This document shows positions 4,814 through 24,705 of a DNA stretch of 25,531 nucleotides, one piece after another. Position numbers and translations under genes: made by a program. The notes beneath the pieces are model-generated. The model was given only the letters and a program-made list of their open reading frames with translations. It made no database searches and was not told the origin of the DNA. Positions within the stretch are counted from its first letter, which is position 1, and the number at the start of each line of letters is the position of its first letter. Source of the DNA: a virus; IMG/VR virus record IMGVR_UViG_3300027805_000081, positions 1 through 25,531 of that record; one strand, written 5' to 3'.

Positions 4814-5587
4814 ATGGAAAATGATAGCCTTAATAAAAAATTGCACGACATAAATTCTGCAATTTCATTTTTAAAATATGGGAGAAATAGAGCTGGGTTT
4901 AACCCGCTTGCTGCTAGAGCATTTCAGCTTGCAGCAGCTGCTCTTCAAGATGAAAATAATGATGTTTTATCTATAGACATAGGTTCACCGTGCACCACGG
5001 GGCCTACTGGACCAACTGGACCAACTGGCCCACAAGGTTTGGACGGTCCAACTGGCCCCGTGGGTTTAACCGGTGCAACGGGTGACCCAGGAGTAACAGG
5101 TCCGACTGGACCTTCAGATGGCCCCACTGGTCCCACTGGTCCAACTGGTGATGTGGGTGCAACTGGACCTACAGGTGCAGGTGGATTAGATGGAGTAACT
5201 GGCCCCGCCGGTGCAAATGGATTAGATGGACCCACGGGCCCTATTGGCCCTACTGGATTAGATGGGGTTACAGGTCCGACTGGCGCGGCTGGCTCCCTAA
5301 TTGTTCCGGTAACTAATGTAACAACTACTCCTTATACCATACTGAGCACGGATTACATGCTCGCAATAAATGTTGCAGGTGCAAGTTCTATCGTTCTTCC
5401 ATCTGCACCTTCAACAGGAACAGTTTATATTGTCAAGGATGTATCCGGAAATGCATCAACAAACAATGTCACAGTAACTGTTTCTGGTGGTGCAGTTACT
5501 ATAGATGGAACAAATTCAGCACTCATAAACACTGACTATGGCGCGTTAAACTTTATCTTTAATGGCACAGAATGGAACGTTTACTAA
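4814..5587 (+). CDS. Collagen-like fibre protein with C-terminal beta head
   Basis: 257 residues. Residues 1-60 form a helical N-terminal part with Cys60. Residues 63-161 are about 33 Gly-X-Y triplets, mostly GPT, GLD, GVT and GAT, with one break at Asp102 (GPS-D-GPT). This predicts a trimeric collagen-type triple helix. Residues about 165-257 form a beta-rich head ([32 protein letters not shown]) that recurs in the proteins at 6152 and 6665. Start ATG 4814 has AAAGGTA upstream. Phage collagen-like proteins are usually tail- or capsid-fibre parts; Thr-rich triplets like these are also used in spore surface fibres, but nothing else here suggests that. Confidence 0.85.
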
Positions 5588-10280: not shown

Positions 10281-10610
10281 TTACACCGTGTTCAGGGTGA
10301 ATTGACCAGTCTTGCGTAGTTCAGTCTCGCGGGCATGCGCTTCAGCCTTGCCGCGGACAAACTCGAAGATGTATGGAACGAAGGCACCGGGACCGTACTC
10401 GCGAATGGATTCGCAGAGAGCCCAGTTCTTTCCTTGGTTGAAGGCACGACCAACATGGCGGCTCCAGCGAGCAGCTAGCGTTTCCTTGCCCGAGCGATCT
10501 ACGCAGACGGCAATACCGACGTATTGCTCGTTCGTTATCACGTTTGACAGCACGTACACGATGTGACGACGATCAGAACGACGCTTCCGCTTTTTGATTT
10601 GGTTGTCCAT
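10281..10610 (-). CDS. GIY-YIG family nuclease, early
   Basis: 109 residues. After a basic N-terminus (KKRKRRSDRR), IVYVLSNVITNEQYVGIA matches the GIY-YIG strands; WSRH and a Glu in HARETEL fit the catalytic Arg and Glu positions. It is a single-domain nuclease without a visible DNA-binding extension. The -10 box of its promoter ends 6 bases before the ATG, so the transcript probably starts at or next to the start codon (leaderless). In T4, the early GIY-YIG enzyme endonuclease II degrades cytosine-containing host DNA. A similar role would fit the hydroxymethylcytosine genes here but is inferred. Confidence 0.8.
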   Translation of the reverse strand: MDNQIKKRKRRSDRRHIVYVLSNVITNEQYVGIAVCVDRSGKETLAARWSRHVGRAFNQGKNWALCESIREYGPGAFVPYIFEFVRGKAEAHARETELRKTGQFTLNTV

Positions 10611-10985: not shown

Positions 10986-12008
10986 TTACAGCAGTTTTAG
11001 CAGTTGCTCTGGCATCGTTCTGAGCAGTTCCTTGGTTTCTTCTGCTCGTTGCTTAGACTTTTCAGTTGAAGCCTTTTCAAACTTGGTTGCTAGAGTTCCG
11101 GCGTGTGCTTTATCTAAATAGGCCTTCTTTATTTGAGAGATAAAGTCATCATAGTTCTTGATGTTCTTAAGGTCACCTTTACCGTACATTCCGTTCATTT
11201 CAAATGACTGACCTAGTCCCTTTACTGCATTTGCTAAATCCTTAAAGGCAATTTCATCTCTGTTTATTCCCGGATGTGACTTTAGAAGAGCTGAAATTTT
11301 AGGCTTATCATGGCCTTCATGAGAGCGGTTATAGAAGTAATCAAAAATGTGACGCGCAAAATTGCCTGGATCAAGAGAGATAGTGTCTACACGGTCAACC
11401 TTCTGCTTCTTGAATGAAACAATCTCATCACCAATGTGCTTGGCCATAACACCATTTCCACCCATGCTTAGGTTCAACACTTCTGCTAATGCTGTATAGA
11501 GAAATCCCATGAATGATCCCTTGAGCTTGTGCTGTGGTGTCATTCTATGTGTTGTCCAATCCTCAGTATGCGGGAATGATTTGACTAGATCTACTTGGTG
11601 AACTTCATCCCCAAGATTGACTATTAAATTTTGACCTACTCTGTCTGGATCATCTACCAAGTATGATGGCTTTTTCTCGTGCGTAAATTCTGCAATAAGG
11701 TCTTGATAGATTGTTGAGTTCTTGTTCTCGGAAACGCCTTCAATTCTAGGAATAACAAATATGACGTCAATGTCACCATATTCTTTTTCAGGATTTTCCT
11801 TTAAATCTCTTTCCCAATACTTAGATGAACCAACAAAGCTTCCAAACTTGATAGGAAGGTAGTTCTTCTTTTTCAAGAACGCGTTGAAGTCGCTTTCAAA
11901 CTTCTTTAGGAAAGGAGTTATCTCCTTCACCGTTTTTGGTGTGGGCTGGCTTCCCTGAGTTTTGGTGGTAGCCCATCCACCTTCTTGAAGGAGCTCGTAT
12001 ACTTTCAT
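10986..12008 (-). CDS. Nucleotidyltransferase-fold protein with putative capsid-targeting N-terminus
   Basis: 340 residues. GSFVGSS at 56-62, then D79-x-D81 (YGDIDVIFVIP) and D140 (HQVDLVKSF) form the GS-DxD-D active-site pattern of the polymerase-beta nucleotidyltransferase superfamily. All three acidic residues are present, so catalysis is plausible. The C-terminal 200 residues are helical and Lys-rich. The first nine residues (MKVYELLQE, then GG) resemble the T4 capsid-targeting peptide cut by the gp21 protease after L-x-E. A near-consensus late box (TATAAATT) lies 28 bases upstream of the ATG. Candidate virion-packaged enzyme that modifies RNA, protein or nucleotide; the target is unknown. 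Confidence 0.72.
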   Translation of the reverse strand: MKVYELLQEGGWATTKTQGSQPTPKTVKEITPFLKKFESDFNAFLKKKNYLPIKFGSFVGSSKYWERDLKENPEKEYGDIDVIFVIPRIEGVSENKNSTIYQDLIAEFTHEKKPSYLVDDPDRVGQNLIVNLGDEVHQVDLVKSFPHTEDWTTHRMTPQHKLKGSFMGFLYTALAEVLNLSMGGNGVMAKHIGDEIVSFKKQKVDRVDTISLDPGNFARHIFDYFYNRSHEGHDKPKISALLKSHPGINRDEIAFKDLANAVKGLGQSFEMNGMYGKGDLKNIKNYDDFISQIKKAYLDKAHAGTLATKFEKASTEKSKQRAEETKELLRTMPEQLLKLL

Positions 12009-12035
12009 ATTTTCCCAGATACAAAAAGTGATGCT

Positions 12036-12043
12036 AATTTATA
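12036..12043 (-). promoter_or_regulatory. Possible late promoter box (one mismatch)
   Basis: Minus strand TATAAATT, one base from TATAAATA, 28 bases upstream of the ATG at 12008. The same distance is seen before the next capsid-targeting-like gene. Confidence 0.4.
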
Positions 12044-12052
12044 ACCTGATTT

Positions 12053-13537
12053 CTAGGCGTATAACTCCACGAGTTTTTCCCAGTTGGGAGCTCCCGATGC
12101 AGCTAAGTTGAGCGCACGAACAAGCTTACGGAGGGAAACATCTCCCTTGCGCTTAGAAGTTTTAACTACCTTCATAACATCTCTGCGCTCTGATGCTGAA
12201 AGTGAAAGACCTTCCTCAAGCTTAATATCATCTAGAATCTTTTCCATGTATTCGAAGAGCTCTTCATCTGTTGGATCAACGTTAATGACGAAAGCACGCG
12301 TGCGAAGAGCACCATCAGGGTCTAGCTTATTAAGAGGTAGATTTGAGATGAAAATAATTCTTCCCTTAAAGTCAAAGAACTTAGGAGCCATGCTCAAATC
12401 ATCTTCATATACTTCAGGATCTTCAGCATCTGGATCAAATATAAACGATGACTTCTTATTCCACACAAGTTTTCTAATTTTCTTTGTGTCAGTTGCTGCT
12501 TTAATAATATTGCGAGCATCTTGATCTGCTAGCGCACCGTCTGAATCGTCGAACACGATGATGTCATTTCTGTGATGATAGAGAAGCGTATACACACCAG
12601 CTGCTGAAGCTGATCCAGTATTCTTAAAATATCCGTTTCCATCTGATAATCCGTGGGATCCCAAAACGTTCTCAACGGTCTGAGTCTTACCAGTACCACC
12701 TTTTCCTGCAACGAACAACGCGTTAAACGCACCCTTAACGATGCCAGTCACTAGTCCTTCTAGGTGCTCAAGAACATCACCATAAGGCACTCTTTCAGAT
12801 GAAGATGATTCTACTTGTTCTTCTTGCTTTGTCTTTAAGTAAACTTCTTTAGTACCGCCGGCCGTTACTTCAATAACTCCTGCTTTAGAAAGAATAGAAT
12901 CCTTTAGCTGATCAATGCTTACGCCTGGCTTAATTGCGATTCTCTTTGCGTCAATTTGAAATTTATCGGCAAAGCTCTTAAAAATAGTGTCAAAGATACC
13001 CACATTAACAATATGATATGTGCCAATAAATTCAGAGCGAGTAAATGTATGCCCCGAAATAAGCTTTTTCATGAAATCATTCAGTGCTTGCTCTGCCGTG
13101 AAATCATCACGCTTTGCTTCCATGACCGCTGATTCTGTTGCTTCTTCAGGATCTACAGGAAATACAGTCATTCTACCTATAGTTGGCGATTTTAAAATAG
13201 TAACGAGTGCGGGTAATGACTTAACTAAAGAAATTCCTTGGGTATGAATGCTGAAAGATGGATCATGTTTTCCATGGAAAACATCTATTGAAGTTATTTC
13301 TGCAGATTTTCCAGCAGATGGTTCTGACTTCCAATTAAATCTAATGCAGTGAGTTGAACCTGAAAAAACATACCTATAACCATATCCATGGGAATCACTA
13401 TTATGAAAATGCTCTACTCCAGGTATCTTGATAAGCTTTACACCTAACTTTTTCTGCAAGAAAGAAATCATCTTTTCCATAGCAAGATGAACCTTAGAAC
13501 TGCTTATCTGTGCTTCAAATAAATCTATTATTTTCAT
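12053..13537 (-). CDS. AAA+ ATPase with long N-terminal domain and putative capsid-targeting peptide
   Basis: 494 residues from ATG 13537; GGGAG lies 8 bases upstream, inside the longer TTG-13552 frame, which is therefore rejected. It starts MKIIDLFE then AQISSSK, matching an L-x-E cleavage site after residue 8. Residues about 10-250 are a mixed alpha/beta region not recognised. Walker A GKGGTGKT is near 278-285, Walker B is IIVFDDSDG, and FISNLP is like sensor 1. The ATPase half is paralogous to the protein at 8282 (KFFDFKGRIIFISNLPLNKL versus SFEFKGGVIFISNLPIFKV). It probably acts late or in the virion, unlike its early paralogue. Confidence 0.8.
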   Translation of the reverse strand: MKIIDLFEAQISSSKVHLAMEKMISFLQKKLGVKLIKIPGVEHFHNSDSHGYGYRYVFSGSTHCIRFNWKSEPSAGKSAEITSIDVFHGKHDPSFSIHTQGISLVKSLPALVTILKSPTIGRMTVFPVDPEEATESAVMEAKRDDFTAEQALNDFMKKLISGHTFTRSEFIGTYHIVNVGIFDTIFKSFADKFQIDAKRIAIKPGVSIDQLKDSILSKAGVIEVTAGGTKEVYLKTKQEEQVESSSSERVPYGDVLEHLEGLVTGIVKGAFNALFVAGKGGTGKTQTVENVLGSHGLSDGNGYFKNTGSASAAGVYTLLYHHRNDIIVFDDSDGALADQDARNIIKAATDTKKIRKLVWNKKSSFIFDPDAEDPEVYEDDLSMAPKFFDFKGRIIFISNLPLNKLDPDGALRTRAFVINVDPTDEELFEYMEKILDDIKLEEGLSLSASERRDVMKVVKTSKRKGDVSLRKLVRALNLAASGAPNWEKLVELYA

Positions 13538-13564: not shown

Positions 13565-13572
13565 TATTTATT
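13565..13572 (-). promoter_or_regulatory. Possible late promoter box (one mismatch)
   Basis: Minus strand AATAAATA, one base from the T4 late consensus, 28 bases upstream of ATG 13537. Confidence 0.35.
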
Positions 13573-16043: not shown

Positions 16044-16700
16044 TCATCTTCCTGAAATTTTCTTGATGTCTTCAAGAATAATATTCAGATTATTTTCTGG
16101 TAAATCAACACCAAAAAGTACTCTATCCCACTGCACAGAAGCAAACCAATTTTTTTCTTCTGTATACATGCTCACGAGCCTATCAATATGGCTAAATAAA
16201 GTCTTCTCTATTGTATTTGATTGTTTACCCATTCTTTTTAGATTCGCGTGTGCTTCTGAAGCAGTAGTAACATCTGATAGAATGCGTTTCTTAAATCTTT
16301 CAAGCCTAACATCCATGTCGGTATGAATGTAGTACTTAAGGTGAATAGCCCCGGCATCCAACGCAGGCTTAACATAATTATCTATGCCAGATGGTTCAAC
16401 AATCAGGAATGCAACACCATGAGAAAGCTTCTGTTGAAATTCATCCTTTGTGACACCATATCGAATGCCACGATAAGTAGCAAGCTCTGCAAACTGATCG
16501 CTCTTTTCAAGAGCTTTAGAGAAGTCTTCATCGATGAAGTAATAGTCAACTCCTTCTTCTTCTCCCATTCTTGGCTGCCGCGTTGTTGTAGATATAAGAC
16601 ATGGCAGTTTAGCCACATCTCTAATGTAATTAAAAAGATATGATTTTCCTGCGCAAGATGGTGCGGTTAATGTTACTAGAACTGGTTTGCTATTAGCCAT
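16044..16700 (-). CDS. Guanylate-kinase-like nucleotide kinase
   Basis: 218 residues. The P-loop is APSCAGKS at 13-20 (K19), an acceptable variant of GxSGxGKS. TTTRQPRMGEEEGVDYYF at 38-55 is the guanylate kinase GMP-binding signature (TTRxPRxGExxGxDYxF). VAFLIVEPSG fits the usual strand with Asp replaced by Glu or Pro. The enzyme family makes GDP from GMP using ATP. The start overlaps the end of the NTP transferase gene by 25 bases, so the two are coupled. It may recycle GMP or dGMP for replication, or serve the neighbouring NTP transferase and YvcK/CofD-like protein. Confidence 0.82.
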   Translation of the reverse strand: MANSKPVLVTLTAPSCAGKSYLFNYIRDVAKLPCLISTTTRQPRMGEEEGVDYYFIDEDFSKALEKSDQFAELATYRGIRYGVTKDEFQQKLSHGVAFLIVEPSGIDNYVKPALDAGAIHLKYYIHTDMDVRLERFKKRILSDVTTASEAHANLKRMGKQSNTIEKTLFSHIDRLVSMYTEEKNWFASVQWDRVLFGVDLPENNLNIILEDIKKISGR

Positions 16701-17479
16701 TTTTGCTTTATCTCCTCTTGAATCAGTGCAACTTCTTCTGGTGTGTTGAAGCTCCTGGTTGGGTAATCAGTTTCATACACCTGAGCTGGCCGCTCGGTGT
16801 TGTGCAATATATGAAATGCATGAAGAAGAGAAAGCTCTCCTCCAGGGGTTATATATCTCCCATTCTTCCAAAAACACGTATGTAAGTTGAACAGGGCATT
16901 GAGAATAACTTTTTTATCAAATCTAAAAATAGATTGATCATGGAATCCTGATGGATGATTTTCTCCATATTTTGAAAAATCTGCAGACATGCACGACATA
17001 TGCTCATCCACCAAAAGTGTAACATAAGGATTATCCTTACGTACAGCAGGAATGAATCCTGAGATATGATTTCCTGCATACCTCTTACTAAGTAATTCAT
17101 CAACCGTTTGGCAAAAAGGCAGAAAAACATCACCCCAGCAAATAACTATATCATCGCTAACTACTGAATAATCAGTAGCTCTTTTAAGCCCCCGCATAAC
17201 GGCATGCCCATCTCCTAGGCCAGATTTAATTGGCACAAAGTAAACACGCGTGTTATCAATTAGAGTTGGAAATAATTTTTCTGTTTCCCTTCTATATTGA
17301 TCCCACTGTTCAGTAATCAGTTCATTTATGATAATAAAAATATTATTAAATTTGTGTCCAATTTGCTGCAGCGTTGTAGTTAAGTTTGGTATGTCTGTAA
17401 TAGGAACTAGGGCCTTAGGGATATTTCCGCCCATCCTTGATCCCTTACCTGCGGCAATAATAAAAAGATCAGTATTCAT
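16676..17479 (-). CDS. GT-A-fold NTP transferase (sugar or phospho-ligand nucleotidyltransferase)
   Basis: 267 residues. IIAAGKGSRMGGNIPKALVP at 7-26 is the nucleotide-binding signature of the GlmU/RmlA/MobA/CofC superfamily, with the Lys in PKALVP. The metal-binding Asp is probably in ICWGDVF. The end (SFNTPEEVALIQEEI) is typical of sugar-phosphate nucleotidyltransferases. It would join an NTP to a phosphorylated ligand, releasing pyrophosphate. The ligand is unknown: glucose-1-phosphate for UDP-glucose supply, another sugar, or a CofC-like phospho-acid. It overlaps the upstream gene by 11 bases and the downstream kinase by 25. Confidence 0.8.
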   Translation of the reverse strand: MNTDLFIIAAGKGSRMGGNIPKALVPITDIPNLTTTLQQIGHKFNNIFIIINELITEQWDQYRRETEKLFPTLIDNTRVYFVPIKSGLGDGHAVMRGLKRATDYSVVSDDIVICWGDVFLPFCQTVDELLSKRYAGNHISGFIPAVRKDNPYVTLLVDEHMSCMSADFSKYGENHPSGFHDQSIFRFDKKVILNALFNLHTCFWKNGRYITPGGELSLLHAFHILHNTERPAQVYETDYPTRSFNTPEEVALIQEEIKQKWLIANQF

Positions 17480-19322
17480 TTTTTGAGTGAATTACGGTTG
17501 TTAGGAAAAATGCAGTTTCTGCTGGATCCCTCACTTTCAAGCACTTTACTCTGTCATCATTCAGCTGAGCAACAGGCCAATCATTTCCAGTTTCAAGTTC
17601 ATCACCAACATATGTAATAGATTTTACCCTGCTTTTAAGTACGTGTTTAACTGCATCCTGCTTTGATAGCACCCGATTATGTATCTCAATAGTTGTTCTA
17701 CCTGTTGGTTTAACAACTAGGGTGTTGAGCTGCAATTTTTCAAGAACGTGCTTTATTAGATTGATAGCAATTTCCCTGTATTCTTCATTGATTGGTTTGA
17801 TACAGATCATTGCATTGCCACGATTCTCTATCTTAGAGTATTGAAATCCGCTTTCTAGTAAATTCTTGATGATTAGATTAGCGGTATCATAATCAATTAA
17901 GCATGATTCATTGATACATCTAACGAAGTTTGGTTTAACACCATCATCAGAATCCAGATGACTTAGGGTATTATATGAATACTCATTAATACCACCATCA
18001 GCATAAACTGTTAGTGGTTTAACTGCGTCAGTTCCCCAAGTATTGAAACCTAGACTATATTGAATCCTAAGAGATACTGCCTTGATGCTGTTTCCAGTGC
18101 ATACTGAGACGCTTGATCTATTCTTTAGCTCACAAAGCATTTTCTTGTTTAGCTCAGATGCCTTTTTCTGGTAGTTACCCCTACCAACCAAAGTATCATC
18201 ATAGTCAAACATGAAGTGCGCACTGTCTAGATAATCTAGAAAGTACGCTCTAGAAATTGCTTTAAAAAGATCTTCAGGCTCATGCTTTGATGATTCATTA
18301 TAGCTTTTGAATGTCGTGACCGATTTGAGAAGAGCGGACGCACTTTCGTCAATTACAGACATCTGTGGGTGGCCACCTACATCTACAACAAGATTAACTC
18401 TTTTCTCACTGAAGTATTTAGGAACAATCAGTCGCACAATGTCGCTTGCTGTCTGCCCGGGTGAATCTTTATCTGGTTCACGATTCATCACCATTATGAC
18501 CTTTGCCTTACTTTGCTGAACTGCTTCTCTGAAGCCAATTGATGCATAGGTTGGAATTAGCGATGACCACTGCGTGCCAGATGAAAGGATTATAAGGTCA
18601 GCATCTAGAATAGCTGCCCGCGCTTCGTGACAAAGAATAGGTCTAACTTCATTTCCTGCTGAATCTACGAAGAACACATCAACGAAGGGATCATCCATAT
18701 TTCCCCAAGAGACGATGTCACCTTCATCTGTTACTCGCGCCCCACTTTTGGTAATAGCCCCAAGGAACATGGACGTATCATCATTAATGATTACATTATC
18801 ATTGATCCCCATTAGGTTAGCCATAATTCTAGCTGCCTCTCTCATAGAGTTTCTATTTGCACTAGCAAATCCAGCATAGATGATGTTAGCTAAAGAAAAG
18901 TCCGTGTAGTCAATCTTCGTCGCTACCGGTATAGAGAAGAACGTTTCAACGGCTTCTTTTAGAAGTGTCATCTTCTCTAGTGCACTTTCTAATCCAAGTT
19001 TATCTCCCAATTCATCAATTGCTTTGATGCAGAAGCCCTGTGCCTTGGATGATTCGCTCGTGAAACGAATATCCAAAAATTTATTCCAAGGTGACAAAGG
19101 ATTCTCTAACTTTAGCCGCGTCGTTTGATTTTTACGAACATCTGATGGTCCTAGAATTTTACCATCACACACCTTGCGCACAGCGCCGGTGCTTAGGCCA
19201 TTATCATATGCGTTAACTATGACCTTGGTGTTAATCCCGTCAATAGGGTTATCGAGCAGATTGTATAGCCCTGTTTGGAGCGCTATTGATCCGGTTCCAC
19301 CTGCCAATATAACTATATTCAT
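17469..19322 (-). CDS. YvcK/CofD-like domain fused to a HAD phosphatase
   Basis: 617 residues in two parts. Residues 1-340: LAGGTGS at 6-12, NAYDNGLSTGAVRK at 37-50, LGPSDVRK at 57-64, LANIIYAGF around 144-152 and LSSGTQWSSLIP at 246-257 follow the YvcK/CofD order (GGGTG, DDGGSSGRLR, PPGDIRN, HSLGNLLLAG, GPGSLYTSIIP). Residues 365-617: FDYDDTLVG at 372-380, CTGNS at 408-412, ADGGINEY and GDELETGND at 573-581 are HAD motifs of the Cof/phosphomannomutase type. CofD transfers a phospho-ligand from a guanosine diphosphate carrier to an alcohol; YvcK binds UDP-sugars. The fusion's reaction is unknown. It lies directly downstream of the DNA beta-glucosyltransferase. Confidence 0.8.
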   Translation of the reverse strand: MNIVILAGGTGSIALQTGLYNLLDNPIDGINTKVIVNAYDNGLSTGAVRKVCDGKILGPSDVRKNQTTRLKLENPLSPWNKFLDIRFTSESSKAQGFCIKAIDELGDKLGLESALEKMTLLKEAVETFFSIPVATKIDYTDFSLANIIYAGFASANRNSMREAARIMANLMGINDNVIINDDTSMFLGAITKSGARVTDEGDIVSWGNMDDPFVDVFFVDSAGNEVRPILCHEARAAILDADLIILSSGTQWSSLIPTYASIGFREAVQQSKAKVIMVMNREPDKDSPGQTASDIVRLIVPKYFSEKRVNLVVDVGGHPQMSVIDESASALLKSVTTFKSYNESSKHEPEDLFKAISRAYFLDYLDSAHFMFDYDDTLVGRGNYQKKASELNKKMLCELKNRSSVSVCTGNSIKAVSLRIQYSLGFNTWGTDAVKPLTVYADGGINEYSYNTLSHLDSDDGVKPNFVRCINESCLIDYDTANLIIKNLLESGFQYSKIENRGNAMICIKPINEEYREIAINLIKHVLEKLQLNTLVVKPTGRTTIEIHNRVLSKQDAVKHVLKSRVKSITYVGDELETGNDWPVAQLNDDRVKCLKVRDPAETAFFLTTVIHSKNEY

Positions 19323-23225: not shown

Positions 23226-24011
23226 ATGTTTAACGATTCTAAATATACTCGCTGGTATTTTTCAATCATATGTAATCCAGATACTGTGTCTTATACTGAG
23301 AAACATCATATTATTCCCAAATCTATTGGTGGATCGGATGAAGAATCAAACATAATCGCAGTTTCTCTTCGTCAGCACTATGTTCTTCATTTACTTTTAC
23401 CCAAAATGGTAAAGAATAAAACTCACAAAAACAAAATGTTATTTGCTCTTAGATGTATGCTTAATTTTAACAAACTTTCTAGAAGATATAAACCATCATC
23501 TCGAATTATTGAACATCTTAAAAAAGCCATTCGAGAAACTCCAATTTCTAGTCATCATTCAGACAATATTAGAAAGGGTCAACTTGGAAAAACTTTAAGT
23601 CAAGAACATAAAACGGCAATTTCAAAGGGATTGCTGGGTAAAAAGCATACTGTTGAAACTTTAGAAAAAATGTCACGTGCTCAAAAAAGACGGATATTAT
23701 CCCCAGATCATAAAAATAAAATTAGTCAAACCAGAAAAGGCAAAGGTCTGAGTTCTGAACACAAAAATAAGATTTCAACTAGTCTTTTAGGAAAAAAACG
23801 ATCTGAAGTATCAAAAATCAATTCTAGTAATGGGCAGCAAAAATATGTTTACACATTAATTTCTCCAAATGGAGAAATCTGCACCACATCTAATCTTAAA
23901 GAATGGTGCAGTATCATGAATATGCCATATTCATCATTTTCTGAAATATCTAGAATTGGTGGATCTACAAAAAATGAATGGAAGGTTTTTAGAAAAAGAA
24001 AAGCTGTTTAA
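23226..24011 (+). CDS. HNH homing endonuclease with NUMOD3-like repeats
   Basis: 261 residues, the only plus-strand gene in a minus-strand region. HHIIPKSIGG at 27-36 with N42, H51 and H55 is the HNH motif. Residues about 110-185 contain repeated NUMOD3-type DNA-binding units (GKTLSQEHKTAISKGLLGKK, then HTVETLEKMSRAQKR, LSPDHKNKISQTRKGKG). The C-terminus (YTLISPNGEICTTSNLKEW) resembles a NUMOD1-type helix-turn-helix. SD TTGGAG lies before ATG 23226. It is AT-rich, inserted between a helicase 5' remnant and the helicase gene, and is probably a free-standing mobile gene whose target lies in the helicase gene. Confidence 0.88.
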   Translation: MFNDSKYTRWYFSIICNPDTVSYTEKHHIIPKSIGGSDEESNIIAVSLRQHYVLHLLLPKMVKNKTHKNKMLFALRCMLNFNKLSRRYKPSSRIIEHLKKAIRETPISSHHSDNIRKGQLGKTLSQEHKTAISKGLLGKKHTVETLEKMSRAQKRRILSPDHKNKISQTRKGKGLSSEHKNKISTSLLGKKRSEVSKINSSNGQQKYVYTLISPNGEICTTSNLKEWCSIMNMPYSSFSEISRIGGSTKNEWKVFRKRKAV

Positions 24012-24093: not shown

Positions 24094-24705
24094 TTAGTTG
24101 TGAGGTGTTAGTTCTGAAAAATCTACATTATCATTCAACCAAGATCTGCCTGCTGGACCATCAACATATGCCTCAAAGAAACAACAGTCTTCGTAAATCA
24201 AGCCAAGCTTCGGTTTAGTCATGAGCCTTTGGTGATCATAGCTTTCTATTTCGCCGGTTTTTCGATCTATCATTCTAGGATAATCACCCTTCATCTTTTT
24301 ATAGTATTCTGCGAAAGATGCAACAGAGGATTCTCCTGCGGTGCTAAATGCTCCACCAACAAACAGGTCATCATCTAGCAAAAGAGTAAGTTCCCAAGAC
24401 AACTCGGCCGCGTATCCTTTTTTGGTTTTGCTGGGATCAGTAGCACTGAACAGAATGCTGATGTACTTTTTTCCAGCAATGATAAATGGCTCAGTATTTT
24501 TATATGAAACCAGCTCTCCATCTACCCACAAAGAATATTTAGTTCCACTGTGGCCATCAAGCTTCTTGATAAACTTGTTCTTGTTGATCTGCTTAACAAC
24601 TTTTGCGATTGACTGAGAGGCCACTTCATGTGCCCATTGCTCAGGAGTAAAATCGTATCCCAACGGATTGCGTATTGCCATTTCTTTGAGAGAAGATAAT
24701 TTCAT
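24094..24705 (-). CDS. Hypothetical protein with possible capsid-targeting N-terminus
   Basis: 203 residues, AAGGAG 4 bases before ATG 24705. The N-terminus MKLSSLKE then MA has an L-x-E pattern at residues 6-8, as in the proteins at 10986 and 12053, but with Met after the cut site the match is weaker. The rest is mixed alpha/beta (SLWVDGELVSYKNTEPFIIA, YISILFSATDPSKTKKGYAA, then LSWELTLLLDDDLFVGGAFS). No family is recognised. It is separated from the dCMP hydroxymethylase by the small gene at 24757. Confidence 0.72.
   Translation of the reverse strand: MKLSSLKEMAIRNPLGYDFTPEQWAHEVASQSIAKVVKQINKNKFIKKLDGHSGTKYSLWVDGELVSYKNTEPFIIAGKKYISILFSATDPSKTKKGYAAELSWELTLLLDDDLFVGGAFSTAGESSVASFAEYYKKMKGDYPRMIDRKTGEIESYDHQRLMTKPKLGLIYEDCCFFEAYVDGPAGRSWLNDNVDFSELTPHN

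Follow-up and report, generated by a model that had tools for sequence, protein, structure and literature searches.

Phage T4 uses short N-terminal tags to load internal proteins into its head and delivers them with its DNA; two of them, IPII and IPIII, share the N-terminus MKTYQEFIAE/A (slashes mark cut sites throughout). Loading of IPIII depends mainly on residues 4 and 7 and its processing on residues 8 and 10, and related basic proteins with a capsid-targeting sequence are known from T4-like phages (PMC9026906). Head packaging of phage ADP-ribosyltransferases and other proteins has also been inferred from gene context and fusions (PMC9503650). Here we analyse two neighbouring genes, encoding a nucleotidyltransferase (NT) and an AAA+ ATPase, in a 25.5-kb fragment of an uncultured T4-like phage (IMG/VR record IMGVR_UViG_3300027805_000081, positions 1 to 25,531; "the window" means this whole stretch). 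We consider it probable (about 0.82) that both are late-expressed internal head proteins, targeted by a short leader, cut by a gp21-type protease and ejected with the DNA to act in the new host. A first-pass annotation of the window had proposed them as candidates for packaging, and this proposal gains support from the conservation of the leaders, their sharing among unrelated proteins, gp21 and gp23 sites in relatives, and leaders in cultured phages.

Candidate capsid-targeting leaders in the window

The NT begins MKVYELLQE-GGWATT and the AAA+ ATPase MKIIDLFE-AQISSSK (Table 1). As the first-pass annotation had observed, these are short N-termini of near-identical pattern, ending in L-x-E before a small residue (MKVYELLQE/G and MKIIDLFE/A). 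The mechanical open reading frame (ORF) call for the ATPase begins at a TTG five codons further upstream, and GGGAG precedes the ATG. A strict leader pattern fits exactly these two of the 36 window genes, with 0.11 expected from shuffled N-termini, and none of 119 internal methionine controls; the leader patterns were refined in the course of inspection, and gene calls outside named records come from a simple script.

The annotation further likened the two N-termini to those of T4 internal proteins. The L/I-x-E ending bears this out, but the leaders have nine (NT) and eight (ATPase) residues against ten in IPII and IPIII, and their closest T4 counterparts are gp24 (MAKINELLRE/S) and Alt (MELITELFDE). 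The near-consensus late boxes that it reported are present before both genes, each with 27 bases between box and ATG. TATAAATT and AATAAATA each have one mismatch to the late-box consensus TATAAATA, and a box with at most one mismatch occurs within 60 bases upstream of 4 of the 36 called genes. Exact TATAAATA is enriched before genes in the relatives; since certain permuted octamers give similar counts there, the putative late boxes are weak evidence. A third possible leader, weak, is MKLSSLKE/MA, on a protein without a family match (24094-24705, minus strand).

Table 1. Features of the two genes, the short paralog and the leader-bearing gene run of a relative. Coordinates are window positions unless a locus is given.
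Feature	Position	Strand	Details
Short NrdC.10 paralog, 322 residues	8282..9250	-	phrog_1250, E 3.6e-59; starts MSNVAILSFDSR; without leader or extra domain
NT, Pol-beta-fold nucleotidyltransferase, 340 residues	10986..12008	-	ATG at 12008; protein start given as MKVYELLQEGGW; from ORF, homolog alignment, model and fold match
NT leader codons (MKVYELLQE)	11982..12008	-	predicted gp21-type cut after E9, before GGW
Near-consensus T4 late box TATAAATT	12036..12043	-	before NT ATG
AAA+ ATPase, 494 residues	12053..13537	-	ATG at 13537; long form of T4 NrdC.10 family
AAA+ domain, residues 251-494	12056..12787	-	Walker A GKGGTGKT, Walker B IIVFDD; NorQ/CbbQ/RFC-like fold, Z about 13
Extra N-terminal domain of the ATPase, residues 9-250	12788..13513	-	missing in NrdC.10; moderate-confidence model
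ATPase leader codons (MKIIDLFE)	13514..13537	-	predicted cut after E8, before AQ
Near-consensus T4 late box AATAAATA	13565..13572	-	before AAA+ ATG
Five-gene leader run in G001	L102:9879-13510		ADP-ribosyltransferase-like, GNAT, T7-kinase-like, zeta-toxin-like, further ADP-ribosyltransferase-like

Leaders, protease and capsid cut sites in related phages

Among 54 distinct NT homologs, 50 have a glutamate directly before the conserved GG and 51 have L, I or V at P3; an MK or MR start is found in 43 of the 47 clear NT leaders. Distant AAA+ homologs begin MSKLTEFKRYLTE/A, MGTMLEFKEYITE/E, MKSFKSYLKE/G, MKTFNLWLSE/S and MKFSQYLYE/G, and near-copies of the T4 IPIII leader are seen in MKSFKSYLKE/G and LTEFKRYLTE/A. 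The relatives' leaders MISFKQFLSE, MKSFKSYLKE and MKTFNLWLSE match the IPIII determinants at positions 4, 7, 8 and 10 exactly. Across both families the leader pattern is kept while its letters vary.

Unrelated proteins of one phage share these leaders. In G001, a 239-kb relative holding both genes, near-identical MISFKQFLxE starts are carried by the NT, an NT2 protein and two ADP-ribosyltransferase-like proteins, and close variants in one gene run by an acetyltransferase, a T7-kinase-like protein and a zeta-toxin-like kinase. At least two of the nine strict leader matches in this genome were set aside as chance, namely a gp15-like tail protein (158220) and a thymidylate-kinase-like P-loop protein (13258). 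A second relative, G017, has eight such leaders against 0.36 expected. On two contigs with the AAA+ gene, SFKxYITE-type leaders are common to five unrelated proteins (L018), and M[KR]FSQ[FY]LxEGI stands on both the ATPase and a 465-residue protein (L088). NT leaders have 0.945 identical residues of five in common with leaders of the same contig and 0.715 with those of other contigs (4/5000 permutations), and at least three residues are shared with the NT leader by 14.5% of leader neighbours vs 1.2% of non-leader neighbours. Such likeness within a contig is expected of a phage-specific docking tag, not of an enzyme-specific segment. Other NT-like proteins (E/GGN) and DUF6267 proteins with a KxDG ligase-like motif, both with leaders of their own, also occur near the NT in relatives.

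A gp21-type protease is encoded by G001 (PF03420 match, 4.4e-25), G009, G011 and G012. Aligned by eye to the T4 gp23 site FLTE/A, the gp23 sites read LQE/T (G001), LAE/S (G011), LFE/S (G012) and LAE/G (G009), with a further site LME/N; the window leaders have the same endings, LQE and LFE. The first-pass annotation had suggested looking for a gp21-like protease and its cut sites in the major capsid protein, and both were found in relatives, including the one with both genes, but not in the window fragment, which is without head genes. We did not find gp21 in many other NT contigs. Eight contigs were examined for gp23 as well, and it turned up in a single one, the contig that has gp21; the absence of gp21 from the others therefore says little. 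Some leader genes adjoin head genes.

In two cultured jumbo phages, too, leaders of this type are found on virion-associated proteins or in virion-associated gene clusters. Agrobacterium phage Atu_ph07 encodes gp21 and gp23, and its gp53-gp63 have N-termini of the form M[KR]W.QL[TN]E or close variants. These lie within coding sequences 31-76, a cluster for which mass spectrometry of virions detected 29 products in all (PMC6102473). Of the 47 called genes of this cluster 13 have leader-like starts, against 13 among the 629 genes that belong to none of the three virion clusters, an enrichment that paralogs inflate; two of the 13 cluster leaders are probably fortuitous, and estimated boundaries were used for the other two virion clusters. 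In phage CBB, MRFSQITE/D (CBB_299) and MNKLQKILTE/L (CBB_210) are both in the published virion list, detected by mass spectrometry, while CBB_321 (MRYNQLQE/A), annotated as structural, and the weaker candidates CBB_64 and CBB_273 are not.

Head packaging of the NT and the ATPase is well supported by this genome-level comparison with relatives; loading, cleavage, delivery and substrates we infer. Both enzymes would be synthesised late, and the first nine residues of the NT and eight of the ATPase would serve as a capsid-targeting sequence that docks them on the prohead core. At head maturation a gp21-type protease would cut after E9 and E8, leaving the mature enzymes in the head, and they would exit with the DNA into the new host. 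There the NT may add a nucleotide to some macromolecule of the host or the phage (our first guess is RNA ends, within a kit for repair or takeover that arrives with the DNA), and the ATPase may remodel a target.

The two enzymes and their possible activities

An alignment of 41 homologs shows invariant NT residues G60-S61, D79-x-D81 and D140, and the structural model (predicted local distance difference test, pLDDT, 92.6) matches polymerases of the Pol X/Pol beta fold with Z about 10 over residues 12-255. The NT hence has the GS motif, the DxD, the third carboxylate and the fold by which the Pol-beta superfamily is recognised. Residues 1-10 of the model have a pLDDT of about 39, vs more than 90 for most of the remainder. 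Sequence searches of Pfam, PHROG and PDB gave no match to the NT, a single PDB match with the NT profile being judged chance, and for six family members Pfam gave none up to E 1 and no sign of RlaP membership; a remote relationship to RlaP may nevertheless exist. We found at least 158 relatives in viral contigs, none in 50,697 named phage records, for which two different family members served as queries, and none in 84,980 bacterial and archaeal genomes, where a single peptide pattern was used that would reveal close relatives only. The NT thus represents an undescribed and apparently phage-only family of Pol-beta fold.

Two activities may be considered for it. One tentative reading is RNA repair, in which the NT would refill nucleotides lost from cleaved RNA, as proposed for RlaP-type nucleotidyltransferases beside RNA ligases. 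The fold and complete catalytic set fit, phages pair such Pol-beta nucleotidyltransferases with RNA ligases (PMC7824862), and the E/GGN and DUF6267 proteins near the NT in relatives carry leaders too, but Pfam gives no sign of RlaP membership and the ligase nature of DUF6267 hangs on a single motif. It is likewise possible, if doubtful, that the NT is a takeover enzyme comparable to T4 Alt, acting on host proteins or tRNA acceptor ends but by nucleotidyl transfer; the relatives' leader-bearing neighbours resemble ADP-ribosyltransferases, an acetyltransferase (GNAT) and kinases, although the NT matches no known protein- or tRNA-modifying nucleotidyltransferase family.

The ATPase matches phrog_1250, the NrdC.10 family (E 3.6e-32, residues 188-491). 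With tblastn it finds NrdC.10 of T4-like phages, and matches in named phages are confined to its C-terminal half. Walker A and Walker B are invariant in 21 AAA+ homologs, and in fold searches with the whole chain the N-terminal domain gave no clear match. The short NrdC.10 paralog in the window serves as an internal control for the leader and the extra domain.

Several further observations concern these genes. The NT is fused to a C-terminal GH19 domain (chitinase/peptidoglycan hydrolase) at L162:6001-7791, L174:1971-3758 and L153:6001-7629, the last with a possible second cut site, LTE/G, in its linker. G012 encodes another NT-like protein two genes from gp23 (L218:11060-11797, minus strand; leader MRWREIITE/GGN), and E/GG recurs in several NT-like families. 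The AAA+ gene of the relative G23 has a mini-intein exactly in Walker A (GKGG/C...HN/TGKT). At the same site the G001 gene falls into two ORFs, and a Vsr-like endonuclease gene separates the two halves of the intein; this arrangement resembles published fractured genes (loci for the two relatives: L226:17877-19844 and L095:1259-4209). Homing endonucleases are frequent between the AAA+ and NT genes in relatives, and the window has a small GIY-YIG-like ORF beside the NT (10281-10610, minus strand) and an HNH-like ORF with a GATAAATA box (23226-24011, plus strand). We did not adopt the idea of a conserved functional pair, as the two genes are seen together only within the clade of the window, where a homing endonuclease often separates them. 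Elsewhere in the window, a block at 16044-19322 (minus strand) with sugar-nucleotidyltransferase-like, kinase-like and 617-residue LAGGTGS proteins is kept in G001, G017 and G023, and a collagen-like GPTGPT repeat protein (4814-5587, plus strand) lies amid fibre-like genes.

Alternatives and comparison with known systems

Several points weigh against packaging and delivery. The window leaders are one or two residues shorter than the experimentally tested T4 leader, the paralogs of Atu_ph07 lessen the force of its enrichment, and the window, having no head genes, shows neither the protease nor the gp23 of its own phage. The NT homolog of G23 (L227:13666-14652) begins directly with M-GGW and is preceded by a good ribosome site and a terminator-like hairpin, though other proteins of that phage have leaders; the enzyme can therefore exist leaderless. 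Immediately behind the leader comes GG[WY], which hardly varies among NT family members, so some of the conservation may reflect a need of the enzyme itself.

It is unlikely that the two proteins are packaged for head assembly or for the packaged DNA, as proposed for T4 IPIII, and not for the next host. IPIII mutants do have assembly defects (PMC9026906), and the position of certain leader genes beside head genes would agree, but enzymes with intact active sites fit a host-directed role better, as do their patchy occurrence among related phages and their ADP-ribosyltransferase-like and kinase-like company. That the short N-terminus simply belongs to the conserved sequence of each enzyme and is no targeting tag is very improbable, the GG[WY] notwithstanding, because its letters differ between phages while the pattern stays, it matches unrelated proteins of the same phage, it is unfolded in the NT model and one NT homolog manages without it. 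Packaging and delivery remain our preferred reading, and the first-pass annotation's word "effectors" would apply if the enzymes are active in the host, as we infer.

The collection of leaders suggests that T4-like phages of this sort pack whole enzyme kits for the first moments of infection. We give about even odds to a broader reading, in which environmental T4-like and jumbo phages practise open loading: each lineage would have its own head-entry tag of 8-10 residues, kept matched on a wide range of unrelated enzymes (nucleotidyltransferases, AAA+ ATPases, ADP-ribosyltransferase-like proteins, acetyltransferases, kinases, DUF6267 proteins), and gaining the tag would make any enzyme injected cargo. 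Some cargo, such as the NT-GH19 fusions, may be polyproteins cut apart in the head at LTE/G-like sites. If this is true, N-terminal residues alone would reveal which phage proteins travel in the head and act at infection time zero. Injected enzymes could then be listed directly in thousands of uncultured phages, with most "hypothetical proteins" testable as delivery cargo; the few internal proteins of T4 would represent only a fraction of a wider practice, and the known injected activities would grow by nucleotidyl transfer and AAA+ remodelling.

In the open-access literature searched we found no report on these NT and AAA+ families or on lineage-specific leaders of this kind. The closest systems are T4 IPI, IPII, IPIII and Alt, which like the window pair have late boxes and a short hydrophobic N-terminal leader with L/I-x-E before the cut (a predicted one in the window pair), common to otherwise unrelated proteins as in the window's relatives. 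The cargo differs, the candidates here being a Pol-beta-fold nucleotidyltransferase and an AAA+ ATPase. T4 gp24 has a leader ending nearly that of NT leaders (ELLQE, EILRE, DLLRE) but is a shell protein, unlike the NT. The ejection proteins of the giant phages SPN3US and phiKZ are head proteins whose propeptide is cut after a glutamate by the prohead protease, as is proposed here, although those propeptides are mostly far longer and have other motifs (A-x-E in SPN3US). T4 NrdC.10 has the C-terminal AAA+ domain in common with the window ATPase; like the window paralog, it is without the leader and the extra domain of about 240 residues. Pol beta, Pol X and the phage RlaP nucleotidyltransferases share with the NT their fold and the catalytic GS, DxD and D, whereas the NT has no sequence match to them, has a separate helical C-terminus and is seen in viral contigs only. 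Finally, MuF fusions and polyvalent proteins also carry host-directed enzymes in phage heads, but do so by fusion to head proteins or in large multidomain chains, where the enzymes described here would rely on a removable tag of 8-10 residues.
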